IMG/VR virus record: IMGVR_UViG_3300008050_000259
Location: 1-26,664 of that record
Source of the DNA: a virus
Reading direction: 5' to 3' (one strand)
DNA length: 26,664 nt
Below are positions 7,103 to 26,472 of this stretch, in pieces. The notes below the pieces were generated by a model. The model was not told the DNA's origin, did not search any database, and worked only from the letters and a program-made list of their open reading frames with translations. The translations under genes were made by a program, and so were the position numbers. Positions within the stretch are counted from its first letter, which is position 1; the number at the start of each line of letters is the position of its first letter.

Positions 7103-7672
7103 ATGTCAATAATCGGAGCAGATAAAAGTGGGGCCACCCTTGCTAAGTTTTCATCACAGATAAAAGGACTGGCGAGACCAAACAGATTCGCCTTTTCATA
7201 TGGCACTTCTCAAACAGATAATTTTTTAACCTTCCAATGTACAAAGGTCAGTATTCCTAAGATTAATATCAAAGGACCAGAAATTAAATGGAGAGGAACT
7301 TCAATGACATTACAAGGTGATCCTAAAAAGGAACCACTGACAGTAACCTTTCTGAATGATAGTGGGTGGGAAGCAAGAAAATATTTTGAAAAGAAATCAA
7401 ATGAAATAAGAGAGAGTGGATCGAAAGGCAATTCTGCTCATTCCTTTTCAAATGTTGGTATTCCATTCAATGAAATTGAAATGAATAATTTAACTGCTAG
7501 AATAGAACATTACGGTGATAATAATGAAATAATAGCATCATATGAATTTTTACATTGTTTACCTCTTGAAATATCTGGCATTGATCTCAACATGGAAACT
7601 AATGGGCAAGTGGAGACTTTTGATGTTACCTTCTATTACACAAAATACGCACAAACATTTCCAACATATTAA
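7103..7672 (+). CDS. Tail-tube-fold protein 1 (gp19-like)
   Basis: This encodes 189 aa, close to T4 gp19 (163 aa). It has the family layout: an N-terminal ARPNRFAF strand followed by LTFQC and a Pro loop (VSIPK), as in gp19 ARPNLF...FTFQC..ALP; a central PLTVTFLND; and a C-terminal VETFDVTFYYTKY matching gp19 QTFEVTLALDYW. Such proteins form hexameric rings of the inner tube or its baseplate adapter. No ribosome site is visible two bases after the previous stop, so it is probably coupled to the gp8-like gene. It is the first of three tube-like genes in a row. Which one builds the tube and which are adapters (gp54-like initiator or terminator rings) cannot be decided here. Confidence 0.7.
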   Translation: MSIIGADKSGATLAKFSSQIKGLARPNRFAFSYGTSQTDNFLTFQCTKVSIPKINIKGPEIKWRGTSMTLQGDPKKEPLTVTFLNDSGWEARKYFEKKSNEIRESGSKGNSAHSFSNVGIPFNEIEMNNLTARIEHYGDNNEIIASYEFLHCLPLEISGIDLNMETNGQVETFDVTFYYTKYAQTFPTY

Positions 7673-7674
7673 TT

Positions 7675-8250
7675 ATGGCATTACCTTTCAACACGATAGC
7701 AAAAAATACAGTTCAAGAAGGGAAAAAACATATTGTTGATTTCCTTGGTGGTGGTTATTCTGATATTCACAGAAGTAATTTATTTGCTGTTAGATTTCAA
7801 TTTGGACCAATAACATTTACTGATATTGAACAGGATATTTTGGCTGTATCAGTAACATACCCAAGAGTAACAACACCAGCAACAGAAATAAGAAGGATGG
7901 GTAGAAAAATAGATATACCTACTGGTATTGAATTTGAACCAACCACAATAACATTCTATGATGATATGGATGGGAAAATTAGAAATAAAATGTGGGAATG
8001 GATGCAGATATATTCTTCAAATACTCCAGAGGATGGGATCAAAAACGAATCTTATGAAAATATGTTTGCTACAATGGGAATATACCAGTTAAATCAAAGA
8101 CATGAAATAACGAGTGGTGTATTACTTGAAAAAGTATGGCCAACAGCAATAGGTGATGTTTCATTGGATGCGTCAACTGAAGATGCTGTGGTAACCTTTG
8201 CTGTTACATTCAAATTCTCATATGCCAAATTTACTAATAAGGGGAAATAA
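7675..8250 (+). CDS. 19: Tail tube protein, best gp19 match
   Basis: This encodes 191 aa. It is the closest of the three tube-like proteins to T4 gp19: RSNLFAVRF near residue 32, a Pro turn after the second strand (YPRVTTPA), a basic loop (RMGRKIDIP) like gp19 MNRKINVAG, a TITFYDD strand like TVTVMNDE, then EKVWPTAIGDVSLD matching gp19 KGLWPTNVGELQLD and a closing beta strand. It should form the hexameric inner tube around the tape measure. Two bases separate it from the upstream stop and no Shine-Dalgarno is seen, which suggests translational coupling. The sheath gene, next to gene 19 in T4, is not in this window, so the main tube gene could lie elsewhere and this be a baseplate-proximal ring. 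Confidence 0.7.
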   Translation: MALPFNTIAKNTVQEGKKHIVDFLGGGYSDIHRSNLFAVRFQFGPITFTDIEQDILAVSVTYPRVTTPATEIRRMGRKIDIPTGIEFEPTTITFYDDMDGKIRNKMWEWMQIYSSNTPEDGIKNESYENMFATMGIYQLNQRHEITSGVLLEKVWPTAIGDVSLDASTEDAVVTFAVTFKFSYAKFTNKGK

Positions 8251-8795
8251 TGTCAAAAGAATTTATCTCAATAGACAATTTTCAGAAAAATAGTTTTTTT
8301 AGAAAGGGGTTCATCACAGACAGTAGATTTGAAGTAACCTTTATAAAACAGTCAGAGTCAAAAGTTGAAAATCTAAATGAGAAAGATTTGAAATGGAATG
8401 TTAAGAGTGTTGAAATGCCTTCCTTTGCTTTAGGTGGTGGTGATAATGATAGACTCCATCAAAAAATTAGTGGTAGAGCATATGGAGATTTATCAATTAC
8501 ATTCTTTGAAAGTATCGATCAAGATATTAGAGGATTCTTCTATGGGTGGATTGAGAATCTATCTTCCTGGAATAGTTCTGATATTAATTTTGGAGAAGTA
8601 CAAGGATATCTTGATTATTATGTTTGTGATATACAAATAACCAACCTGAAGGGTAAAGGGGAAGATGCTAAAACTGATTTATTTTCAAAGGCATTTCCAA
8701 AAACTATCAGTTCGAGATCATACAATATTGAATCTGAAGCAGAAGTAGGAACAACAACAGTAACATTTGGGTATAAATTCCATGATTTTAAATAA
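8250..8795 (+). CDS. Tail-tube-fold protein 3 (diverged gp19-like)
   Basis: This encodes 181 aa. The start overlaps the previous stop (TAATG) behind a strong AAGGGG site. The tube-fold outline is kept but weaker: FITDSRFEVTF strand, VEMPSFALGG turn in place of the usual Pro loop, DLSITFFES, a helix (IRGFFYGWIENLSSW) matching the gp19 segment after the central strand, KAFPKTIS in place of LWPTNVG, and a TTTVTFGYKFHD closing strand. It probably forms another hexameric ring in the tail tube or at the baseplate junction. T4 has gp19-fold domains in gp48 and gp54 as tube initiators, and this could play a similar part. The assignment to the fold is reasonable; the exact role is inferred. Confidence 0.6.
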   Translation: MSKEFISIDNFQKNSFFRKGFITDSRFEVTFIKQSESKVENLNEKDLKWNVKSVEMPSFALGGGDNDRLHQKISGRAYGDLSITFFESIDQDIRGFFYGWIENLSSWNSSDINFGEVQGYLDYYVCDIQITNLKGKGEDAKTDLFSKAFPKTISSRSYNIESEAEVGTTTVTFGYKFHDFK

Positions 8796-8807: not shown

Positions 8808-9608
8808 ATGAGTAAAATAACAGAATATACAAAAAACAAACGAAACTTTCAAAAAATCAAATTATTAAGTGGTAGATCAATAGGTATTACCCATTGGCTT
8901 GTCAAAGAAGAAAAAGAATTGCTTTTCAATGTTGAGATGCAACCAGATAACAAAGAATTATTGATTAACGAGAGTATCAACCTGATAAAAAATTGTGTTG
9001 ATAAGAAACAGATGATTGATAAATTATCTAAGAATGATATTATCTTTATCTTAGTCCAACTCAGAAAGATATCTAATAGTAAACAGGTTGATTTTAAATT
9101 TACTTGTCAGAATACTAAATGCCCATCCTTCATCACTTTCAGTCCTGAAAAACAACAAGAGACTGGTGTAACAGGTAGAGGCACTGAAGAAATAGTTGAT
9201 AATGTTGATCTAAAAGAAGATATCGTTTCATCACCTTTCAAATCTGATAATATTGCCATTGGAAATATTGTATTTACCCCAAAAGAGTTGTCATACAAAA
9301 CACAACGAGAATTGGAAACATTATACATCAATGAAGATAAATTACAATTGAACAAATTCAATTATAATGTCATTCTAAATTCCATCGCATCAGTAACAAT
9401 TGGTGATGATAAAATGAGTGATTTTTCTAAAGGAGAATTATCGGACTTCATTGATAATAATTTGAAAATGGAAGATTTCAAGAGATTATCAGAACAACTT
9501 AATGAGCAAATGAGTACTTTCAAAATAGAGAAGAAAGTGAGTTGCCCAGTTTGTAAGAATGAAACTAAGGTAGTATATGATGAATTGTTTAGTTTATTCC
9601 TTTTCTAA
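8808..9608 (+). CDS. gp26/gp51-like baseplate hub assembly protein (T4_baseplate family)
   Basis: This encodes 266 aa behind a good GGAGTAACTA site. It looks like the T4 baseplate-hub family of gp26 (208 aa) and gp51: N-terminal LLSGRSIGITHW beta segment, a helical LSKNDIIFILVQLR region, then two Cys pairs (C100/C105 and C246/C249, the last as CPVC) that could bind a metal. It ends abruptly at DELFSLFLF. Directly after the stop, the -1 frame carries a 62-residue stretch with the LPDYY...FSIEEIENL.PFE plan I associate with the C-terminal domain of this family. A frameshift product of 328 aa is therefore likely. In T4, gp26 and gp51 help build the hub and are linked with the tape-measure-hub complex. 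The next large gene is a tape-measure candidate, as expected. Confidence 0.6.
   Translation: MSKITEYTKNKRNFQKIKLLSGRSIGITHWLVKEEKELLFNVEMQPDNKELLINESINLIKNCVDKKQMIDKLSKNDIIFILVQLRKISNSKQVDFKFTCQNTKCPSFITFSPEKQQETGVTGRGTEEIVDNVDLKEDIVSSPFKSDNIAIGNIVFTPKELSYKTQRELETLYINEDKLQLNKFNYNVILNSIASVTIGDDKMSDFSKGELSDFIDNNLKMEDFKRLSEQLNEQMSTFKIEKKVSCPVCKNETKVVYDELFSLFLF
9593..9608 (+). promoter_or_regulatory. Possible programmed -1 frameshift window
   Basis: The -1 frame opens after its TAG at 9590-9592 and the zero frame stops at 9606-9608, so a shift must occur between them. The best slip is at the zero-frame Phe codon TTC (9603-9605) in front of TAA: moving back one base gives TTT, which the same tRNA reads. 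There is no classic X-XXY-YYZ heptamer, so this is inference. It is supported by homology-like sequence that starts upstream of any ATG. Confidence 0.4.
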
Positions 9609-9640
9609 TTCGTTCTATATCACTACCTGATTATTACAAT

Positions 9641-9793
9641 ATGTTATGGTTTATGAAACAACATTGTAGGTTTTCAATTGAAGAAATTGAAAACCTCACT
9701 CCTTTTGAGTTTGATTTGTTCTATCATATGGGTGTTAAGGATATGAAAGAACGGAATGAGCAGATAGAAAAGCAGAGACAACAACTTGGTTAA
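9641..9793 (+). CDS. Short ORF in -1 frame, likely C-terminal extension of the gp26-like protein
   Basis: From the ATG this would be a 50-aa protein; the open frame itself begins at 9593. No Shine-Dalgarno precedes the ATG. The recognisable part starts before it, at LPDYYNMLWFMKQ, and continues FSIEEIENLTPFEFDLFYHM then a Lys/Glu/Gln-rich helix. Small helical domains with I/LPDYY and L.PFE motifs occur at the end of tail or hub assembly chaperones. In lambda the analogous gpG-gpGT extension is made by -1 frameshifting. I read this as the extension of the upstream protein, made in a minority of translation events. A free-standing small protein, or a remnant of an ancient frameshift mutation, are alternatives. 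Confidence 0.5.
   Translation: MLWFMKQHCRFSIEEIENLTPFEFDLFYHMGVKDMKERNEQIEKQRQQLG
9668..9696 (+). other. Perfect 12-bp hairpin with 5-base loop
   Basis: Arms 9668-9679 and 9685-9696 are exact reverse complements (AGGTTTTCAATT and its complement) around GAAGA. It lies inside the short -1-frame ORF, about 60 bases past the proposed slip site. No U-run follows immediately, so it is not a standard terminator. It may influence frameshifting or mRNA stability. Confidence 0.5.
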
Positions 9794-9817: not shown

Positions 9818-12316
9818 ATGGCTGAATTAGATGATGTAAAGAAAATATCAGAAGCAATAGAAAAACTAGACACTGATATTGATATCTCACGTATCACACA
9901 TAATATCAAGAAATTCAAAAAAGTGCTTGGAGGTTCAGCACTTCATCAAATCAGAGAAAGTATTACATTGGTTGACGATGTTGCTTCAAAGATAAAAATT
10001 TTTAGTGAAGCAGGAGATGGGTTACGAGATTTTTCAAGTTCATTGGAGACTTTCACAAAAATAGATACTAAAACGGTTTCCAGTAAAATAAAGTTATTAT
10101 CAGGAGAAAACAAATCAATAAAAATATTAGCAGAGACAGGAAAAGGGTTTTCAAAGGTTGCTAATTCTCTTTCAACTTTTGAAACTATAAATCCTGAACT
10201 AGTCAAAAATAATATCACGAAGATTTCATCAGTCTCTGATGAAATATTCAGTCTTTCGAGTAGCGTAGATGAACATTTTTCTCATCTCACAAAATCGTTT
10301 GAAACATTCCAAAATTTAGGAGTATTTGGCCCATTAAAGATAAAATATGGTATAAAGGCAATCGCAAAGGTAATACCAGAAATTTCTAAATTGAAAGGCA
10401 ATATTGATGAAGATATAGTACCATTGGCAGAAGCAGTCAAAACCTTTTCGGAAATAGGTTTTGAAGGTAGGCTGAAAATGGGATTTACAATAAAATTTCT
10501 TCAGAAAAAACATAAAGAAATATTATCACTTTCAGAAAACTATAATGAAGATTTAGAACCATTAACCCAGGCAATTGATGTTTTGAGTAAGATAGACCTG
10601 AAGAAAAGAATCGCATTATCAGGAGTATTAGAAAGACTTGCTTCAGGATTTGAAAGAATAAAAAAGGTTGGTATAAAGAAAGGAGACATTGAAAGTATTA
10701 CGTCAGATGTCAATCTTCTTGGTAAGACCGATAAAAATATCAGTATACAAAAAGATATTCCAACAATATCTGAAGTAATAGGTAAGGAAAAATTGGATAG
10801 TTTCATCCCTGAAGGGACTGTTCAACCCAATGCCACTGTTCAACCTGAAGGGACTGTTCAACCTGAAGGGACTGTTCAACCCAATGCCACTGTTCAACCC
10901 AATGCCACTGTTCAACCTGAAGGGACTGTTCAACCTGAAGGGACTGTTCAACCCAATGCCACTGTTCAACCTGAAGGGACTGTTCAACCCAATGCCACTG
11001 TTCAACCTGAAGGGACTGTTCAACCCAAAAATATTAAAACATCAAAGATAACATCAAAGATATTATCTGGTATTAAAACCATTCTCAAAAAGGAAGACAG
11101 ACAAGATGATAGAAAAGATGAACAAACAAGAAATGAAATAAATGCCAACGAAACAAAAATGTCTGATCTTGATATAGATCAGGATGCCCAGACTTCAAAG
11201 ATTGAAATAATAGACAACAAGATAGAATCAATGTTTATAAAGGTTTCCTCTAATAATGATATGCTCAGACAGGTTCTTGGGAAACCAATGGAAAAGAAGA
11301 CTGAAGAAACTCCATCCGAAACAAAAATTGATCAAAAAGAAGATGGGTTGGGTGGTTTATTGAATATGGGATTATTAGCAACCGCTGGGGCAGCAATGTT
11401 TGGCGCTTGGTTAGGAAAAGAATATCCATGGTTAGGTCAGGGATTCAAATATCTCGGAGCATTCAAAGATGAAATTTTCTCAGTGATTAAAAACATTGGA
11501 GGTACTATATGGAAAGGTATCACTAAGGTTGCTTCTAATATACCATTTCTTGGAGATTTTTTCAAGGGCAGTGCTATGAAGGGTGGTAAGGTATTAGCAA
11601 AAGGAGCAGCAAAAGGTGGGGTCAAACCAATGGTGAAAATGTTTGGTAAGATTCTGGGAGGAAAGGCATTTGCTAAAATACCAATTATTGGTCTTGGTGC
11701 TGCTGCCATGTTTGCTTATGATAGATGGATGAGTGGTGATAAATTAGGAGCATTTATAGAAGCAACTTCAGGTATCGCAGCACAGGTTCCAGTGGTAGGT
11801 ACTGGTATTGCTTTGATGCTGGATGCTTTCCTAATGGGGAGAGATGCGGTGAAGGCCAACGAAGCAAGCAAAGCAGAAAGGAAGAAAAAAGGACTTCCAA
11901 TGACAAAAACTCGCATTGATAAAATGTTAGGGATGCCAATAGAAACTGGTAATGAATGGATAGATGATGCTATTGAAGGTGTTTTACCAACGGTTGATGC
12001 TGGGTCTCTCATTTCTAAAGGGTTTGAATATCTTGGTTTTGGATCTCCAGATATAGGAGATGATGCCCAACAAACCAAGACCCCCACATCATCTCCTACA
12101 CCACCTGCGAAAGAAACTCCAAAAGGTGTTGATGAAATAAAACAAGAAACAAATGATATATCAGATGTTACAAGAGAAGCATTGGTATCAAATACAACGA
12201 CTAATAATACAACCACTATTATAAAACCAGAATATGTTGATAGATGGCATAAAGAAATTATACGAGAATCAATCCCACAAGAATCTTCAACTCCAGATTC
12301 ACCAATACACCAATAA
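9818..12316 (+). CDS. Putative tail tape measure protein (gp29-equivalent)
   Basis: This encodes 832 aa behind AAAGG. Residues 1-285 are helical, with about five degenerate repeats of 43-46 residues, each marked by a (S/A)-x3-F/L-x-x-I/L motif such as SLETFTKI. Residues 331-402 are twelve hexapeptides (PEGTVQ or PNATVQ). A charged linker follows, then hydrophobic segments near 510-532, 619-635 and 653-672, and a Pro/Thr-rich tail. Long helices plus hydrophobic stretches in a tail operon fit a tape measure, which sets tail length and may enter the host membrane. Its place between the gp26-like gene and the gp48/54-like gene mirrors T4 gene 29. T4 gp29 is 590 aa, so a longer tail is expected. 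No sequence match to gp29 is visible; the call is from architecture and position. Confidence 0.6.
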   Translation: MAELDDVKKISEAIEKLDTDIDISRITHNIKKFKKVLGGSALHQIRESITLVDDVASKIKIFSEAGDGLRDFSSSLETFTKIDTKTVSSKIKLLSGENKSIKILAETGKGFSKVANSLSTFETINPELVKNNITKISSVSDEIFSLSSSVDEHFSHLTKSFETFQNLGVFGPLKIKYGIKAIAKVIPEISKLKGNIDEDIVPLAEAVKTFSEIGFEGRLKMGFTIKFLQKKHKEILSLSENYNEDLEPLTQAIDVLSKIDLKKRIALSGVLERLASGFERIKKVGIKKGDIESITSDVNLLGKTDKNISIQKDIPTISEVIGKEKLDSFIPEGTVQPNATVQPEGTVQPEGTVQPNATVQPNATVQPEGTVQPEGTVQPNATVQPEGTVQPNATVQPEGTVQPKNIKTSKITSKILSGIKTILKKEDRQDDRKDEQTRNEINANETKMSDLDIDQDAQTSKIEIIDNKIESMFIKVSSNNDMLRQVLGKPMEKKTEETPSETKIDQKEDGLGGLLNMGLLATAGAAMFGAWLGKEYPWLGQGFKYLGAFKDEIFSVIKNIGGTIWKGITKVASNIPFLGDFFKGSAMKGGKVLAKGAAKGGVKPMVKMFGKILGGKAFAKIPIIGLGAAAMFAYDRWMSGDKLGAFIEATSGIAAQVPVVGTGIALMLDAFLMGRDAVKANEASKAERKKKGLPMTKTRIDKMLGMPIETGNEWIDDAIEGVLPTVDAGSLISKGFEYLGFGSPDIGDDAQQTKTPTSSPTPPAKETPKGVDEIKQETNDISDVTREALVSNTTTNNTTTIIKPEYVDRWHKEIIRESIPQESSTPDSPIHQ
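10808..11023 (+). repeat. 18-nt minisatellite, 12 units in two alternating types
   Basis: Twelve head-to-tail 18-base units are present. Type A is CCTGAAGGGACTGTTCAA (PEGTVQ) and type B is CCCAATGCCACTGTTCAA (PNATVQ). Their order is A B A A B B A A B A B A. Copies of each type are identical base for base, with no silent differences, which points to recent expansion or ongoing exchange. Confidence 0.95.
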
Positions 12317-12324
12317 AGGATATA

Positions 12325-13191
12325 ATGACAACTTATTCATACCCTAAAGATATAGAAAAGACAACCCATGTACAATTCAAATTTTGGGATCACGAATTAA
12401 AACCACCTTCACAACAGACCGTTTCAAAAACTGGCACGGGAACAAAAAAAGTTGAATTTGTTAAAAGTAAAGAGGCAAAAAGTGAATCTTCTTCCCGAAA
12501 AACAAGTGTTGGTGATATAGTCAATTTATATGTTCAAGGTGGTATTGGGACTGATATCGATTCTACATGGAGTATGAAAGAAGTCCCAATAGTTGGTAGT
12601 GTTGATGCTGGTCAAGGTTTAGAGACAATAAAACAGTCTCTCAGCAACACTCTTGAACTGGGTACTCAAGTGGCTACAAAGGTGGTTGCTTCAAAGATAA
12701 TGAAATCAGAAGCAGTTACTTCAATAATGGATGGAATAAATGCTAATACTGGATATTCTATATTACCAAATACTGCTATGGTGTTTGGTGGTGCTTCTCC
12801 CGAAACAGCACCATTTTCCTTCTCATTTACCCCAAGAAATCAAGATGAAGCAAAACAAACTCTTGGAATAATAAATGCCTTCAAGAAAGCATCAACATCA
12901 CAAACTATTGATACAGGCATACTTTCAGGTTCTTATAGAATAGCAAAAGCACCACCTATATTTTCTATAGCAATATTGCCTGGAGGTGGTGATGACACTG
13001 TAAAAGGCAATTCATTCTATAAATTTCCTGATATGGTGTTAACAAAATTTGATGTAAAATTTAGTGAGGGTGAAGCATTTTTTCAGATGTTTTCTGATAA
13101 TAGACCAGTCAGTGCTACTTTGTCATTATCGTTTGCCTCATTATACTCTTCCCAACAACAAGATGGTGAATATCGATTATTTGGAGAATAG
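12325..13191 (+). CDS. gp48/gp54-like baseplate tube cap/initiator
   Basis: This encodes 288 aa behind AAAGGATATA. The second half follows T4 gp48/gp54: a Tyr/Phe-Gly-Gly-Ala motif (VFGGASPE, cf. MYGGAEN in gp48), then SFSFTPRNQDEAKQTLGIINAFK (cf. TWDLTPRSTEDLMAIINIYQYF), a P-hydrophobic strand (PPIFSIAIL), a FPDMVLTKFDVKF strand like the gp48 segment before its closing strands, and PVSATLSLSFASL. The N-terminal ~110 residues are polar and unlike gp48. In T4 these two proteins cap the hub and start tube polymerisation around the tape measure. Only one such gene is seen, while three tube-like genes stand upstream, so one of those may do the other's job. Confidence 0.65.
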   Translation: MTTYSYPKDIEKTTHVQFKFWDHELKPPSQQTVSKTGTGTKKVEFVKSKEAKSESSSRKTSVGDIVNLYVQGGIGTDIDSTWSMKEVPIVGSVDAGQGLETIKQSLSNTLELGTQVATKVVASKIMKSEAVTSIMDGINANTGYSILPNTAMVFGGASPETAPFSFSFTPRNQDEAKQTLGIINAFKKASTSQTIDTGILSGSYRIAKAPPIFSIAILPGGGDDTVKGNSFYKFPDMVLTKFDVKFSEGEAFFQMFSDNRPVSATLSLSFASLYSSQQQDGEYRLFGE

Positions 13192-13731: not shown

Positions 13732-15365
13732 TGAGTAATTATGATGGTGGTGCTAATATAGGTCAATTAACAAAACCTAGACCAGCAATCAATGAAATTA
13801 TTATAGGCAACACAAAGATTGATCCTGTCAACCTTATAACTCTTGATATATTTGAATCTCTTTTTAAACCTGAGATTACTGGAGTAATAATTTTCAATGA
13901 TTATTCAAATATAGTTTCAAAATTTGGAATAGGTCTTGAATCGCCTGTTGAAATAACATTCAAACAATACGGAAGCACCTCAAGTCCATTAACAGTAAAG
14001 ATGGAAGTTGAGAAAATGTCCTCAACAATTCAACTTTCAAAAATGAATGATGTTATTACTCTCACGTTAATTGATAGATGGACTGCTCAGGCAAAGAAAA
14101 CTTTTATTCTCCCAAAAAATATCACGTCTAATAATATCTCCAAAGAATGGAAAATTACTAAAGAAGATTTTAACACCAATAAGAAAAAAGTACGGATTGA
14201 TCAAATAATCAAAGCATTGGTTTATCAAGCATTATTAAAACTTAATAATACAGAGTATACTATTGATGAAGATAATTGGACAGAAACACAACAAGCATTA
14301 GACATTTATTCTCCACCTCAAGATAAAAATATTCTTGAAAATATCGAATATCTTCTTAATTATGCCACTAACATTCCAGAAAAATTAGATCAAAAAGAAC
14401 CACTTACTGATAGTTGGGGGATGACATTATTTACTAATATTGAGACTAAAAAAATAGCATTATTGAGTATTGCTGATCTTATCCACCCCAAGAAAAATTA
14501 TGGAGATGCTGGATTTGAAATAATCCCAAACTATATAGGTAATGAGCATTCACCTTCAAACATAAAGAAGATGAGTAATCAATCTAATATTGATAATAAT
14601 AAATTTATAGAATTTGGATTTGGTAAAATAAAATATACAATTTATGAAAAGAAACTCAACAAGGTTCTCACTGAAAAGGATATAATAGCACTACCATCTT
14701 GGTATATCGGGCAGGACACCATAAAGTATGCTAAATTTGGAAACACTCTACCAATCAAAAAAACATTCTATAACCTTGATTATGGACGAGAAGAATCGCA
14801 AATAAATTTATCATTTTCTCAGGATTCAGTATTTGATAGTACTTCAAGTGATCTTGAATATTTCGCAAAAAGTTTTATAGCAGCAAAACTATCAAGAAAT
14901 TTAATCAAACTCATTGCGTATAATGTAGAGACACCAGGAGAACAAGGTCAGAAAAGAGTAGGAAAACAAATCCACGCAAAGGTACTTCAGACTGGCGGTT
15001 TCTTTGATAAAATAAACGAGATGGTGAGTGGGATGTTTATTATAACAAATATCCGTCATAGAATATCACATTTTGTTTATACAAATTCATTTACCATTGC
15101 GAAGATTGGATACAATAAAGATAAAGTCGCCCAAGAAGGTTTGATAAATGCCAAAGATAATGAAGAAGTTGAATTGCTAGAAAAATTATCAAACCCTAAA
15201 AATAATTACAATTTTTCTGATTTTGAAAATATTGTTGATAAAACCAAAGCATTTATAGCATCATTGAAATCCATTGGAACATCTGAAATGATAGATAATG
15301 GTAAGGATTTAACAAAAACAACCAATGCTTTGAAACTTTCAGGTTACGAAAAGAAAATACCATGA
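13731..15365 (+). CDS. 27: gp27-like baseplate hub protein
   Basis: This encodes 544 aa. The ATG overlaps the upstream TAA and lacks a clear ribosome site, so it is likely coupled. Position just before an OB-fold spike gene and overall plan fit the hub family of T4 gp27 (391 aa), phage gpD and VgrG N-terminus: an opening FESLFKPEITGVIIFND domain, a PVEITFKQ and MNDVITLTLIDR tube-like domain, a mid part with NILENIEYLLNYAT (cf. gp27 FENYLSYV), and a late GMFIITNIRHRISHF..YTNSFTIAK stretch like gp27 EFYVDEVIHELS......YMFTNATK. As a trimer it would join the sixfold tube to the threefold spike. The C-terminal ~70 residues are charged and probably flexible. The identity is inferred from pattern and order. 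Confidence 0.65.
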   Translation: MSNYDGGANIGQLTKPRPAINEIIIGNTKIDPVNLITLDIFESLFKPEITGVIIFNDYSNIVSKFGIGLESPVEITFKQYGSTSSPLTVKMEVEKMSSTIQLSKMNDVITLTLIDRWTAQAKKTFILPKNITSNNISKEWKITKEDFNTNKKKVRIDQIIKALVYQALLKLNNTEYTIDEDNWTETQQALDIYSPPQDKNILENIEYLLNYATNIPEKLDQKEPLTDSWGMTLFTNIETKKIALLSIADLIHPKKNYGDAGFEIIPNYIGNEHSPSNIKKMSNQSNIDNNKFIEFGFGKIKYTIYEKKLNKVLTEKDIIALPSWYIGQDTIKYAKFGNTLPIKKTFYNLDYGREESQINLSFSQDSVFDSTSSDLEYFAKSFIAAKLSRNLIKLIAYNVETPGEQGQKRVGKQIHAKVLQTGGFFDKINEMVSGMFIITNIRHRISHFVYTNSFTIAKIGYNKDKVAQEGLINAKDNEEVELLEKLSNPKNNYNFSDFENIVDKTKAFIASLKSIGTSEMIDNGKDLTKTTNALKLSGYEKKIP

Positions 15366-15685
15366 TAAGAATAGCAAAGGTTTTGAGTAATAAAGATCCA
15401 TTAGCACAAGAACGATTGAAAGTCAATGTTATGGGTGTTCATAACATATATCTCACTGATGATAACGATACTGGAATATGGGCACATCATTGTTCTCCAA
15501 TAAAATATTCTTCTGGATCTTTACCAATCTATGGTGATATGGTATATGTATGGTTTGATGAAAAAATGCCAAATGATGCTATTTGGATGGGTCATGTTAT
15601 TTCCAGCAATTCAGTTGAAACTGATAATACCAAAGAAACGATAAAGACAAATTCAGAAATATTAGACAACCACAAAGAAATATAG
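15362..15685 (+). CDS. Spike OB-fold protein (gp5 N-terminal-domain equivalent)
   Basis: This encodes 107 aa; its ATG overlaps the hub stop as ATGA. The first 83 residues follow the gp5/gpV OB-fold plan: IAKVLSNKDPLAQERLKVNVMGVH at the start (the usual D..GR.KV.V.G), IWAHHCSPI, then a Gly-x-hydrophobic-V.V.F core (GDMVYVWFDEK) and AIWMGHV. The last ~25 residues are a charged linker. This domain plugs the hub trimer above the beta-helical spike. There is no lysozyme domain after it, unlike T4 gp5. The TAG at 15683-15685 is followed at once by the ATG of the beta-helix gene in the same reading frame, so the two look like one ancestral gene split by a stop. Confidence 0.7.
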   Translation: MIRIAKVLSNKDPLAQERLKVNVMGVHNIYLTDDNDTGIWAHHCSPIKYSSGSLPIYGDMVYVWFDEKMPNDAIWMGHVISSNSVETDNTKETIKTNSEILDNHKEI

Positions 15686-17089
15686 ATGGGAAATATACTA
15701 GACAGAGAATCATCAATCTCAAGATTCTTACAAATCCGCGTCCCTAGTGTGAATAGTGATGGGACAGTATCAAGTGGTTACACAACAGAATCAGAAAGTG
15801 CCGTGTCAAGAATGGATACTACTGATAAGGATATTATTGATAATCTTACCAAGGCCACTATCACCAAAAATTATCTCTACAATCAAAATTATGATGTCTT
15901 TGATTTCTTGAATAATAGTAAGGAAGGTATAGAGATAAAAGAAGATTTACCAGCATCTGATAAGACCTTATACAATAAAGCATTTGCTGTTTTTGATAAA
16001 GACAAAATGTCAATGTTGTTTGATTATTCAGGTGATGCTGAGAGCAAGAGAATCCATCTACATCACCCTAAAGGTTCATATTGGACTATAAATGGAGATG
16101 GTTCTTATATAGAAAAATATGTTGGAGGATTCAAGTCATTTATTTTAAATGATATGTCTCAAATGGTAAGAGGCAAATATAATCTATTATCAAGAAGTGA
16201 TATAAATATTGAGACTAGAAAAAATCTTTCAACAACAGCAATAGAAAGTTTCACAGTATTAGCAGGAAGTGATTATAAACTGATAGGTGGAGGAAGTTTT
16301 GAAGATATCACCGGAACAAAAAATATAGCAAGTAAAGGATTTTATGTTGATTCTAAATCATTAATCACATTGAAATCTGGAGATGTAATTCTTGATGCTA
16401 AAGATGGTGTGCGAATACGAGGTGGGAACATTTCATTTGAAGCAGGACTAATTGATTTTGATATAGGTTCCAATCTTACACAAACAGTAGCAGGATCATT
16501 TGAATTAGGCGGTGGTTCTTTGATATTAGCAGGTTCAGACAATCTAAGTATTTCATCTGGAGGCAATGCCACTTTTACTACTATCGGATATAGCAAAGAA
16601 ATAATCAACAATTCCCCTCCATATACATCACTTGATACATACGGAAAAGAAATAAAGGTTACTCTTGGAGGATATAAAGTTGATGTAAATCTAGGTAATA
16701 TCACAATGAATACACTTGCTGGAAATGTTGATGTCTCCACTATTTTAGGAAATGTTGATGTAGGGACCAAGGCAGGAAATGTTTCAATAAGTACATTGTT
16801 AGGGAATGTTGAAACAACCACATTGCTTGGGAGTGCTAAGATGGGCAATGCTATTGGATCTGTCACAGTAAATCCTATCGGTCTAGGAAATATAAAATCA
16901 GCAACAGGTGATTTGAAAGGGTTTCTAATGGACTTGATGTTAAAAATTGATACTTTTATTACCACATTTGATTCCCATAACCATATAGCACCATTAGGAC
17001 CAACATCACCACCAGTATTACCAGCGATAGCAGATCATCTAGCATTTAATATTGAAATGAAAGCAAAATTATTGCTTTTATTAGGATAA
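15686..17089 (+). CDS. Beta-helical central spike protein (gp5 C-terminal/gpV-like)
   Basis: This encodes 467 aa. After a polar ~100-residue linker comes HLHHPKGSYWTINGDGSY and then short strands alternating with Gly/Asp/Asn turns (GDVILDAKDGVRIRGGNISF; later GNVDVSTILGNVDVGTKAGN), typical of a trimeric beta-helix. Near the end, H431-N432-H433 is followed by PLGPTSPP. An HxH motif binds iron at the tip of the P2 gpV and phi92 spikes, and HxH plus a Gly/Pro tail is common in this family. The last ~30 residues are again helical. The protein should form the membrane-piercing needle under the hub. It starts directly after the TAG of the OB-fold gene with only a weak AAAG upstream, so coupled translation or readthrough is possible. 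Confidence 0.7.
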   Translation: MGNILDRESSISRFLQIRVPSVNSDGTVSSGYTTESESAVSRMDTTDKDIIDNLTKATITKNYLYNQNYDVFDFLNNSKEGIEIKEDLPASDKTLYNKAFAVFDKDKMSMLFDYSGDAESKRIHLHHPKGSYWTINGDGSYIEKYVGGFKSFILNDMSQMVRGKYNLLSRSDINIETRKNLSTTAIESFTVLAGSDYKLIGGGSFEDITGTKNIASKGFYVDSKSLITLKSGDVILDAKDGVRIRGGNISFEAGLIDFDIGSNLTQTVAGSFELGGGSLILAGSDNLSISSGGNATFTTIGYSKEIINNSPPYTSLDTYGKEIKVTLGGYKVDVNLGNITMNTLAGNVDVSTILGNVDVGTKAGNVSISTLLGNVETTTLLGSAKMGNAIGSVTVNPIGLGNIKSATGDLKGFLMDLMLKIDTFITTFDSHNHIAPLGPTSPPVLPAIADHLAFNIEMKAKLLLLLG

Positions 17090-21331: not shown

Positions 21332-23721
21332 GTTGCGAAGATAGAAAAGTACCATCACCATCAAGTATAGAAACTGGTCTTGAAGATTTAGACAGATTAA
21401 AAATTAGTGATCTAGGGAAAGATATTGATGCTCTCCAGAAACTCATTAATAGTTCCACAACATTTTCATTAGATGATTTAGATGAAAATTCTGGAGGTAA
21501 ACGGGTAGGAGTATCTGATACTTCAGGGACTGGTACGGGAACTTCAGGGACTGGTACGGGAACTTCAGGGACTGGTACGGGAACTTCAGGGACTGGGACA
21601 TCAACAAGTTCTTCAAGCACGTCAGATTCTACTGATGATGTCAATATAAATGATATAATCAATCTTCTTTCAGTAAATCTTGGGTTTGAAGAATGGTTAT
21701 TGTTGAACAAATTAACAGGCGTTACTGATCCAGATGATATTAAAAAACTCAAAGAAGAATTTATAAAAGCAACAAGAGGAAAAGGCAGTAATTCAATAAC
21801 ACTTTCATCTGGAGTTACTTATACTGGAGATGATGGAGAGACAACCACAACATCAAGTACAATAGGTTTAATCACTGGAGATGATGATTCTACTGGCACA
21901 ACATCAACTGATACTAATAATGACGATGTTGTTGATGATGAAGATACCTATGATACTGCTACAGAATCAAAGTATAAAAATAAAACTCTCCCAGTAGAAG
22001 TTCAGAATAAAATGAACGGTATGTGGAAACTTGTGAAATGGGGAATAGACCTCAATCCAGCAATCAAAAGCAATCTTGAAACATTTGCTAAAGGAGCAGC
22101 AAAAGTTCAATTATTGTTAGCATTGGGTATTATTCTTCTTGAATTGTACAAATTTCTAATAGTCTCGTTTGCTGATCCTTTAAAAACTGCTATAATATTT
22201 GTATTAGATCAAGTTATAGATTTCATTAATGGATTGAGAAAAATTGGGGTTTATACTTTTTTCATATATCCAGGAAAATTAAATTCTGTTCCAGAATCTG
22301 AAACCAGTGGATTAGGTTTAGATTTCAATCCTATTGATAATTATTCAGGTGACAGTAAGACTCTTATCTCCTTACGGGAATTAATACCAACAGGTGTAGC
22401 AATTCTTGAAAATCAGATTGATCAACACAAAGAAGAAAAAGCAGCCATTGAAGAAATGATTTCAAAAGGACCAGATGAATATATTAATTATGTTATTCGT
22501 AATGAAGATCAACTGGTAGATAACGCAAAGAAAATCAAGAATCTCTCAGAACTTTCAAAAACAGTTGAAGCAAAAGCAAGAGCGCAACTCAAAATTAAGA
22601 AGATTGATGAAAATATAAAACTGAAAACTAAAGAGTTGGAGAAATTTGATAAGAGTATACCAAAACTATCAGTTAAACAAGCAATTAGTGTTTACCTTAC
22701 CTCATTAAAAAGTAACCATCCTGATGTCCCCCAGTTCAACTCCAATCAAGAGGCTGGAGGTATCGTAATAGTGGCGAGTGCTAAGACAAAAAATATCATT
22801 AATCTAATCACTGCTTTATCAAATCTCACAAGTCTATTTGCTATATTCATGTCAGACCCCAGAGACTTCATGAAGGCATGGAAGACAATGAAAGAAGCAC
22901 TAGATGATATTCAAAATATTGAAGAGGTTAAGAATCCAGATAATAGATCCAAATATGACGATTTATGGGAAAGTGCTAGACTATTTGATTTGTTACCGGA
23001 AATAGAAGCATATCTTTCAGATGATAAAAAAGCAACAAAAACTGTTGGGTTAGATAAATCATTACTTGATCTTGAATTATTATTACGAGGTTTTAAATCA
23101 TCTTTCGAGGATGGATCCCAAAAAGCATTAGACGCAAACATTAAAGTTATAACCCAAAGAGTCAAAAAACTTACAGAAATATCAAAAGCAATAACAGGAG
23201 TAATAAAAGCAATTGAATTAATAAATAACAATAGTAAGGATATTGTTGATATGCGTGGTTTGATTGTCCCTCCACAACCTGGGGGACTTGAGTTGTTACA
23301 GAAAAACTTGAAAGACAAATCATTATTAAACAGACCTGATGAAGAAGAACCATTCTGTATGCTTCTATCATTTGTTGGAGGTGGTCCAGGTATAGCAACT
23401 ATTTACAATTTATTATTTGCTGGGAATGGTAAATCTCCAAAAATGAATGGAGATGTATTCTCAAAAGATTCTGTAAGTGCCATTCGTACATTGGCTGGTT
23501 TAGAGACGGATGGGACTGATAAAAAGACTAGAATGAATAAACATTTTGGTTATGATTCGGATTTAATTGATAAGAAGAAAAGAGAAGCAACAACACAAAT
23601 TACCACTATATTACATATACTATCAGGTAATATGGCTATTGTAGAAAAAGACCCAGAGATGAAAAAATTTGCTACAAATTTATTAAGTAACACTGATACA
23701 GGCAAATCGCTTTATGACTAA
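21328..23721 (+). CDS. Unrecognised 797-aa structural protein with Thr/Ser/Gly linker and hydrophobic segment
   Basis: The ATG sits behind AGGA and overlaps the previous stop. Residues ~65-90 are a low-complexity TSGTGTG linker. Residues 170-215 are Asp/Thr-rich. Residues ~258-303 are strongly hydrophobic (QLLLALGIILLELYKFLIV, then AIIFVLDQVIDFI). Residues ~370-450 are a charged coiled coil. The remainder is helical with a Pro/Gly turn (VPPQPGGL). A hydrophobic segment inside a long helical protein would also suit a tape measure, so it is a second candidate for that role, but the gene at 9818 has better gene order. It lies before the gp14-like neck gene, with 8 bases of overlap. Its role is unknown; virion membership is inferred from context. 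Confidence 0.6.
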   Translation: MSCEDRKVPSPSSIETGLEDLDRLKISDLGKDIDALQKLINSSTTFSLDDLDENSGGKRVGVSDTSGTGTGTSGTGTGTSGTGTGTSGTGTSTSSSSTSDSTDDVNINDIINLLSVNLGFEEWLLLNKLTGVTDPDDIKKLKEEFIKATRGKGSNSITLSSGVTYTGDDGETTTTSSTIGLITGDDDSTGTTSTDTNNDDVVDDEDTYDTATESKYKNKTLPVEVQNKMNGMWKLVKWGIDLNPAIKSNLETFAKGAAKVQLLLALGIILLELYKFLIVSFADPLKTAIIFVLDQVIDFINGLRKIGVYTFFIYPGKLNSVPESETSGLGLDFNPIDNYSGDSKTLISLRELIPTGVAILENQIDQHKEEKAAIEEMISKGPDEYINYVIRNEDQLVDNAKKIKNLSELSKTVEAKARAQLKIKKIDENIKLKTKELEKFDKSIPKLSVKQAISVYLTSLKSNHPDVPQFNSNQEAGGIVIVASAKTKNIINLITALSNLTSLFAIFMSDPRDFMKAWKTMKEALDDIQNIEEVKNPDNRSKYDDLWESARLFDLLPEIEAYLSDDKKATKTVGLDKSLLDLELLLRGFKSSFEDGSQKALDANIKVITQRVKKLTEISKAITGVIKAIELINNNSKDIVDMRGLIVPPQPGGLELLQKNLKDKSLLNRPDEEEPFCMLLSFVGGGPGIATIYNLLFAGNGKSPKMNGDVFSKDSVSAIRTLAGLETDGTDKKTRMNKHFGYDSDLIDKKKREATTQITTILHILSGNMAIVEKDPEMKKFATNLLSNTDTGKSLYD
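21520..21597 (+). repeat. 21-nt tandem repeat encoding TSGTGTG
   Basis: There are three exact copies of a 21-base unit starting ACTTCAGGGACTGGTACGGG (21520-21582) and a partial fourth. The unit encodes a Thr-Ser-Gly linker and is more G-rich than its surroundings. Exact identity suggests recent slippage. Confidence 0.9.
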
Positions 23722-25569: not shown

Positions 25570-25773
25570 ATGAACAATTTCAAAAAAATGATTAGAGAAG
25601 CATATTCAAAAGAATTAGATGATGCTTCAATGGAATTAGAAAGAGCATTCAATAAATATACCGAAATCATAAAAGATGAATTTGTTGACACAAAGGATGG
25701 TAAAAAGAAAGTTCTTAGTATTTCAAAATTCAGAAAAACATTATATTCTTTCATGAAGGAGAATAAATTTTGA
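25570..25773 (+). CDS. Small putative internal head protein with capsid-targeting leader (NNF type)
   Basis: This encodes 67 aa behind GAGGAAATAAT. The N-terminus MNNFKKMIRE places F at 4, hydrophobic residues at 7-8 and E at 10. This is the same spacing as the T4 capsid targeting sequence MKTYQEFIAE, after whose Glu the gp21 protease cuts ((I/L)-x-E). Here I-R-E is at 8-10. The mature part would be 57 residues, helical and mixed charge, ending SFMKENKF. It could be an injected internal protein or a scaffold-core component. The leader nearly repeats at 26543. The stop overlaps the next gene's TTG start. Confidence 0.65.
   Translation: MNNFKKMIREAYSKELDDASMELERAFNKYTEIIKDEFVDTKDGKKKVLSISKFRKTLYSFMKENKF
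25756..25772 (+). promoter_or_regulatory. Ribosome site supporting the TTG start at 25770
   Basis: AAGGAGA (25756-25762) lies seven bases before TTG (25770-25772). The encoded leader equals that of the ATG-started gene at 26236, which confirms this start. Confidence 0.8.
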
Positions 25774-26225
25774 AATCATTCAAGGAACTGCTTGCTGAAG
25801 AGATTTTACTCGAACTATTTGATAAACCACTTCCATTCTCTTGGGAAGAAATAACACCAAATTCTTGGTATGCTAGTTTCAAAATTGATAAACAGCATTA
25901 TGGAGTTGATATTTATATAACGAATGATTCTCCAGACCCTGATATTGAACAGGGTTGGGAGATTGTTTTTGGTGTAGGGAAAGATAGAATGGGTTTAGAT
26001 ATTGGTATTCTCAATACTGGTAATGAAATTAAAGTGTTTTCCACCGTCGTGGCAGCAATTAAAGAATGGTACAAATTAAATAAAAACCATCCGTTTTGGT
26101 TTTCTGCTAAAGAACCAAGTAGGGTAAAATTATACAAAGCATTCGCCAGATTAATAAAAAAGGAAATTGGAAGAAGTCATAAATTAATTAAGAAGAAAGA
26201 GACATATTTTGTATTTAACACATAG
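25770..26225 (+). CDS. Putative internal head protein with capsid-targeting leader (KSF type)
   Basis: This encodes 151 aa from a TTG overlapping the previous TGA. The first ten residues, MKSFKELLAE, line up with the T4 leader MKTYQEFIAE, and L-A-E at 8-10 fits the prohead protease rule, so cleavage after E10 would leave ~141 residues. The body is a compact alpha/beta protein: PFSWEEI....WYASF, GVDIYITNDSP, GWEIVFGVG, VFSTVVAAIKEWYK, then HPFWFSAKEPSRVKLYKAFARLIKK and YFVFNT. I recall this SAKE..SR..LY end from small proteins of other large myoviruses, function unknown. It may be packaged and injected to act on the host early. The first 31 bases after the first T are repeated exactly at 26237. 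Confidence 0.65.
   Translation: MKSFKELLAEEILLELFDKPLPFSWEEITPNSWYASFKIDKQHYGVDIYITNDSPDPDIEQGWEIVFGVGKDRMGLDIGILNTGNEIKVFSTVVAAIKEWYKLNKNHPFWFSAKEPSRVKLYKAFARLIKKEIGRSHKLIKKKETYFVFNT
25771..25801 (+). repeat. 31-bp exact direct repeat, copy 1 (leader sequence)
   Basis: The bases are identical to 26237-26267 and cover codons 1-10 of both KSF-type leaders. The sequences after the repeat are unrelated. Confidence 0.95.
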
Positions 26226-26235
26226 AGGAAAATTT

Positions 26236-26472
26236 ATGAAATCATTCAAGGAACTGCTTGCTGAAGATATAGAACCACCCATCAAGAGAACAGAAAAACG
26301 AGTATGTGAGATGTGTTCAAAAGATATAGTTCATAATGTTGATAAACACAAACACACAAAAAAGGCAATGAAGAATAATGGAAAAGCCATTCTTATAGAT
26401 GGTAAAACCTATTGTCTTGAATGCCTTGCTGGAACGATCAAGAGAAATAAAGTAAAAAATATTGATATTTAA
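26236..26472 (+). CDS. Small zinc-ribbon protein with capsid-targeting leader (KSF type)
   Basis: This encodes 78 aa from the ATG at 26236 (GAGGAAAATTT upstream); the open frame extends back to 26209, but this ATG has the ribosome site and the shared leader. Residues 1-10 are MKSFKELLAE, as in the previous gene, with predicted prohead-protease cleavage after E10. The mature part has C24-x2-C27 and C60-x2-C63 with a His/Lys-rich loop (H33, H38, H40) between, giving a likely four-Cys zinc site, and a basic end (KRNKVKN). Such a small basic zinc protein could bind nucleic acid or a host factor after injection; that is inference. Alternatively it is a cytoplasmic protein and the leader match is an accident, which the exact DNA repeat makes unlikely. 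Confidence 0.7.
   Translation: MKSFKELLAEDIEPPIKRTEKRVCEMCSKDIVHNVDKHKHTKKAMKNNGKAILIDGKTYCLECLAGTIKRNKVKNIDI
26237..26267 (+). repeat. 31-bp exact direct repeat, copy 2 (leader sequence)
   Basis: This is the second copy of 25771-25801, coding the same ten-residue leader. Confidence 0.95.

Follow-up and report, generated by a model that had tools for sequence, protein, structure and literature searches.

The window, that is, the whole stretch of DNA analyzed here, is a 26,664-base virus fragment from IMG/VR, in which a gene of the T4 gp26 family is overlapped at its 3' end by an open reading frame in the -1 frame. The features relevant to the discussion are as follows:

8808 to 9608, plus strand: gp26-family ORF, short form (TAC-N, gpG-like); PF12322 6.9e-23, phrog_150 1.3e-23
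9590 to 9592, plus strand: TAG stop of the -1 frame, which from the sequence confines a slip to 9593 to 9608
9593 to 9599, plus strand: T_TTA_TTC, at the position of the relatives' canonical T_TTT_TTY in a gapless -1-frame alignment to the YY residues
9593 to 9793, plus strand: -1 frame with the gp51 C-terminal domain (TAC-C, T-like), 66 codons and a stop; phrog_634 6.4e-11
9599 to 9608, plus strand: proposed slip site C_CTT_TTC followed by TAA, at which tRNA-Phe would move from UUC to UUU
9641 to 9643, plus strand: earliest ATG in the -1 frame; falls within the conserved domain and has no Shine-Dalgarno (SD)-like match
9668 to 9696, plus strand: perfect hairpin of 12 bp, some 60 nt downstream of the slip site; 115-nt fold z of -1.1
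9818 to 12316, plus strand: 832-aa ORF at the tape measure location (T4 gp29), judged by its position between gp51 and the gp48-like gene; contains an 18-nt repeat array
12325 to 13191, plus strand: gp48-like tail tube cap; phrog_230 3.9e-18

The product of ORF 8808-9608 is a 266-aa protein of the T4 gp26 family. PF12322 covers its residues 17 to 264 with 81.9 bits, above the curated cut-off of 24.5; a model built from gp26 relatives gives 5.8e-41, a value that is not independent, since this model contained the window protein. Profile searches found no second gp26-type match elsewhere within the 26.7-kb record. The ORF ends in AGT TTA TTC CTT TTC TAA, and the -1 frame is open over the 16 nt up to the end of this stop codon, forming an overlapping shifted-frame ORF. 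The part of this frame that would follow the slip comprises 62 codons (9605 to 9790), with its stop codon at 9791 to 9793.

In profile searches, no tape-measure model matched ORF 9818-12316, whose tandem array of 18-nt repeats (10808 to 11029) encodes VQPNAT/VQPEGT units; a near-identical contig, IMGVR_UViG_3300025133_001269 (L001), ends inside this array. Upstream, three consecutive ORFs (7103 to 8795) belong to the tail-tube family, with phrog_45 in each. Further downstream, a gp5-like spike protein is split by an in-frame TAG with an ATG directly after it (15362 to 15685 and 15686 to 17089): the N-terminal part of phrog_430 matches the first ORF and a later part the second, the stretch between being left uncovered. 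A perfect 21-nt repeat in 3.7 copies (21520 to 21596) lies within a 797-aa ORF, and two neighboring ORFs (25770 to 26225 and 26236 to 26472) both start with an MKSFKELLAE leader, which we take to be reminiscent of the capsid-targeting leaders of T4.

The preliminary description of this locus had assigned the 62-residue extension to the C-terminal domain of the gp26 family. The similarity that it noticed is real, but the domain is that of another protein. Indeed, phrog_634 (gp51, "baseplate hub assembly catalyst") aligns its columns 60 to 118 of 121 to the 66 residues of the -1 frame, and a gp51 model built from the relatives with the window excluded recognizes this frame at 1.3e-14. On the strength of these two matches, the extension is, by sequence similarity, the C-terminal domain of T4 gp51 and not gp26's own. 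As had been claimed, the similarity begins upstream of the ATG at 9641: tblastn matches with the -1 residues span query residues 1 to 66, and the alignment with the relatives runs without gaps from 9593 through to the family's YY. Readthrough of the gp26 stop codon in frame 0 was rejected: the gp51 similarity is confined to the -1 frame, and nothing like it is encoded in the remaining frames of the window.

To place the locus in its family, we assembled loci from IMG/VR scans with the window gp26, with gp26 and gp51 alignments, and with T4 gp51, together with GenBank records (ten of the frameshift type, and T4). This yielded 340 loci besides the window, and 284 with both proteins after identical cores were collapsed. 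Loci with a single protein did not enter the counts. By coordinates, five of them are at contig ends (gp26 alone in L018, L185, and L323; gp51 alone in L135 and L140), and the T4-type loci L179 (gp26 only) and L173 to L177, L181, and L182 (gp51 only) were handled separately. In 281 of the 284 distinct loci, gp26 and gp51 are encoded in different frames, the other 3 being of the T4 type with one ORF. All of these 281 loci encode gp51 in the -1 frame, in overlap with the 3' end of gp26. Furthermore, an in-frame T_TTT_TT[C/T/A] heptamer is found in the overlap near the gp26 stop in 280 of them, the exception being the window with the near-identical L001. Since the surveyed sequences are related, these counts do not represent independent events, and clusters are a fairer measure: at 40% gp26 identity there are 39, and 38 have the canonical heptamer. 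The preliminary proposal of a -1 frameshift producing a longer gp26-type protein is thus supported, as is its parallel with lambda gpG/gpGT.

The heptamer is T_TTT_TTC in 171 loci, T_TTT_TTT in 91, and T_TTT_TTA in 18, and the gap between its end and the gp26 stop ranges from 0 to 24 nt (3 nt in 205 loci). By comparison, T_TTT_TTN occurs within the last 33 nt of only 2 of 589 other ORFs of the same loci, which are mechanical ORFs of at least 150 aa, a few of them perhaps not true genes. Codon usage at the site is strongly skewed: T is the last base of the codon preceding TTT in 280/280 loci, compared with 63% expected from the residues used, and the pair TTT-TTC occupies 171 slip sites versus 27 of 283 Phe-Phe pairs elsewhere in gp26. 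From the slip onward, the relatives show conserved residues in the -1 frame. Upstream, GGAG or GAGG is present in 73 of 142 representatives (60% identity), nearly always 14 to 15 nt before the heptamer, and Glu at this SD-like position is encoded by GAG in 55 of 84 cases, compared with 820 of 3,240 elsewhere. The 60 nt downstream of the heptamer fold better than their shuffles (mean z of -1.80, versus -0.43 for a control region); a helix common to the family was not found in this region, column covariation reaching 0.25 against a permutation null maximum of 0.26. Taken as sequence signatures, the codon bias, the SD-like GGAG, and the downstream folding support programmed -1 frameshifting across the family.

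These data also bear on whether gp51 might be a separate small protein, translated either by coupling at TAATT, with an AUU start at 9608, or from the ATG at 9641. Databases often annotate gp51 as a gene of its own, and in several relatives (P-SSM2, Marzo, RL38J1, and Ds20CZ) an ATG coincides with the gp26 stop or follows it closely. However, AUU is a rare start codon and has no SD-like match in the window, while initiation at 9641 would remove the conserved beginning of the gp51 domain. No SD-like match of at least 3 bases precedes that ATG, as the preliminary description had stated; its further remark that most genes here have a ribosome site holds only moderately, 9 of 12 other starts checked in the window showing a match of at least 3 bases and 6 of 12 one of at least 4. 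Moreover, all relatives keep the -1 frame, although 101 of 280 loci have no ATG, GTG, or TTG before residue 16 of that frame. In 173 of the 280, the first -1-frame ATG, if any, lies at least 16 residues past the slip. Separate translation of gp51 in the window phage is therefore unlikely.

The window departs from its family in the slip site itself. At the position of the canonical heptamer it carries T_TTA_TTC (9593 to 9599), on which a tandem slip is impossible, and no canonical in-frame X_XXY_YYZ heptamer is present in the overlap. Within these 16 nt, perfect re-pairing is possible at one point only, for tRNA-Phe moving from UUC to UUU at 9603 to 9605, just before TAA; the CTT of C_CTT_TTC can re-pair on CCT only with a mismatch at the middle base. 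What sets the window apart is its slip sequence: C_CTT_TTC abuts TAA and leaves re-pairing to tRNA-Phe alone. In dnaX-type frameshifting, an SD-like element upstream and a structure downstream assist the slip site. Many relatives of the window resemble this arrangement in having both, whereas inspection of the sequence and folding revealed neither an SD-like element upstream of the window site nor a strong structure close downstream. These absences, like the CTT mismatch, speak against slippage at the window site, and a role in slipping for the hairpin at 9668 to 9696 is doubtful. Transcriptional slippage was rejected for the window as improbable on general grounds, its T run comprising only four residues.

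Because the window is the sole locus of 281 that lacks the canonical heptamer, we infer slippage at TTC 9603 from homology. The arithmetic by which the preliminary description arrived at a 328-aa fusion is correct; for the slip itself, the intact -1 domain, the lack of a usable start, and a parallel in the Ackermannviridae described below also point to frameshifting in the window phage, as far as sequence can indicate. Closer relatives were sought by gp26, gp51, a tube protein, and genome contigs, and only the near-identical L001 was found.

An exceptional site could arise from an error of sequencing or assembly, in which case one T would be missing and the true gene would be a continuous 328-aa frame. 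One extra T in the T run would indeed join the two frames, the window is the only exception to the canonical site among the 281 loci, and a continuous fusion is what T4-type gp51 represents. We nevertheless consider such an error very improbable: the second contig, whose virus may not be independent of the window's, shows no mismatch across 8808 to 9793, the window fragment holds no second gp26-type gene, and the one-frame arrangement is found in 0 of 281 loci outside the T4 type. Alternatively, the site may have decayed, the window phage having lost the long form or, like T4, producing it from another part of the genome. The lack of a canonical signal would fit this explanation, as would the limited extent of the known sequence, 26.7 kb. 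The -1 domain, however, is intact and still recognized by the relatives-only gp51 model, and its reading frame meets the gp26 stop without interruption. We accordingly give decay of the site very little weight.

Sites that allow only the Phe step exist elsewhere. We inspected 15 further named records, in all of which the -1 frame after gp26 is open; the gp51 model matches this frame in 14, and in Vibrio 207E48.1 the similarity is recognizable only by eye. Twelve carry T_TTT_TT[C/T/G] (Atu_ph04, AS-zj, Vibrio D479, Melnitz-2, P-SSM2, P-SSM3, Aeh1, VH7D, pf16, RL38J1, Marzo, and Ci1). The three Ackermannviridae records are non-canonical, with A_ATT_TTC in Vi01 and Ds20CZ and G_CTT_TTT in 207E48.1. 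A further scan, with Vi01 as its starting point, found 42 loci, of which 2 cut by contig ends were dropped, leaving 40, or 29 distinct, with gp51 in the -1 frame in 29/29. The Ackermannviridae-type loci among them have ATT_TTC in 14 of 14, preceded by A in seven and by G in seven, which establishes that the window site is not alone in offering only this step; the remaining 15 have T_TTT_TTC. The Vi01 site is immediately preceded by a -1 stop, and no ATG, GTG, or TTG occurs in the 14 codons that come next. The gp26 locus of these phages (Vi01, Limestone-type) resembles that of the window in pairing a non-canonical NTT_TTC with a -1-frame gp51 domain, but it reads ATT_TTC then AT[T/C] TAA in place of CTT_TTC TAA, and the proteins are distant. 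We consider it an even chance that a single-tRNA-Phe NTT_TTC site replaced the tandem-slip heptamer in the window lineage and, independently, in the Ackermannviridae, leaving the conserved frameshift to run on slippage of one tRNA, and that in the window the stop codon in the A site sets the ratio of the two chaperone forms.

The T4 arrangement offers a further comparison. T4 genes 26 and 51 are divergent neighbors: gp26 consists of the family domain alone (PF12322 8.8e-64) and corresponds to the short form, while gp51 combines a gp26-like domain (PF12322 3.9e-52, residues 1 to 201) with the extension in frame. What T4 encodes in two divergent genes, the window thus encodes in one gene with a change of frame. 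Ten T4-type relatives share this plan of gp51, among them L182, in which the gene is split into two overlapping ORFs, possibly by a sequencing error. The homology of the gp51 N-terminal part rests on Pfam, PHROGs, and the relatives' models, because a profile comparison of the gp26 alignment with the single T4 gp51 sequence aligned only 31 columns, at 12.8% probability. A model of a T4-type gp51 (pLDDT 82.9; not the window protein) had no PDB match below an E value of 1. The preliminary description had counted one continuous frame against a frameshift; T4-type phages do have such a frame, yet it belongs to an additional gene, gp51, that accompanies a short gp26, which supports the reading of two forms. 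Since Aeh1, AS-zj, VH7D, and Ci1, listed like T4 in the Straboviridae, nevertheless have the -1 arrangement, the two-gene state of T4 looks derived, a suggestion based on taxonomy rather than on a tree.

The lambda gpG/gpGT pair shares with the window a short chaperone, a -1 shift near its end, and an extension, and it acts on the tape measure protein. The lambda slip site is G_GGA_AAG, whereas that of the window is of the single-tRNA type, and the likeness drawn here is one of gene plan. We think it probable that the window gene produces two forms of a T4-type tail assembly chaperone by a -1 slip at CTT TTC TAA. Most ribosomes would stop at the TAA at 9606, giving the 266-aa gp26-like short form. 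In a minority, with the stop codon in the A site, the peptidyl-tRNA-Phe would slip from UUC (9603 to 9605) to UUU (9602 to 9604), and translation would continue in the -1 frame to add the 62-residue gp51 domain, giving 328 aa. If the two forms act as gpG and gpGT do, the part common to both would coat the putative tape measure protein from the next ORF (9818 to 12316), and the rare extension would recruit the tail tube protein. The label "hub protein" used in the preliminary description fits the product less well than that of a tail assembly chaperone in its long form.

Parts of this scheme have precedents. According to passages of PMC5009743 (2016), gpG and its frameshift product gpGT bind the tape measure protein of lambda, the T part binds the tube protein, and G-T frameshifting is widely conserved "except T4." An excerpt of PMC3004832 lists T4 gp26 and gp51 as hub assembly chaperones. 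The chaperones of T4-like phages described by Vladimirov et al. (2022, Virology 566:9-15), represented here by the title of that article and by passages citing it, appear from these passages to be of the same protein families and occur in short and long forms. The citing passages state that some T4-like phages have one short gene and one long fusion gene (PMC10274946, 2023) and that poly-T slippery sequences are known in T4-like TAC-N genes (PMC12846349, 2025), a heptamer that the window phage lacks. On the basis of these passages, the identity as chaperones has already been published, as has the frameshift across the family, at least in part. A description of the window or Ackermannviridae sites was not found in the literature searched, which covered Vladimirov et al. 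through those citing passages.

Outside T4-type phages, our comparison corrects a common annotation, in which gp51 is shown as a separate small gene or omitted. In the fetched stretches of Atu_ph04, AS-zj, Vi01, Aeh1, and VH7D (L341, L342, L347, L348, and L349), gp51 is unannotated and the -1 frame is present. At least 101 of 280 loci offer no usual start codon within reach, and gp51 outside the T4 type is most plausibly taken as the C-terminal end of a frameshift product. The frameshift appears to be common to hundreds of related viruses and partly known, and the window's signal appears unusual among them. Together with the Ackermannviridae sites, it provides natural test cases for the minimal sequence needed for a programmed -1 shift.
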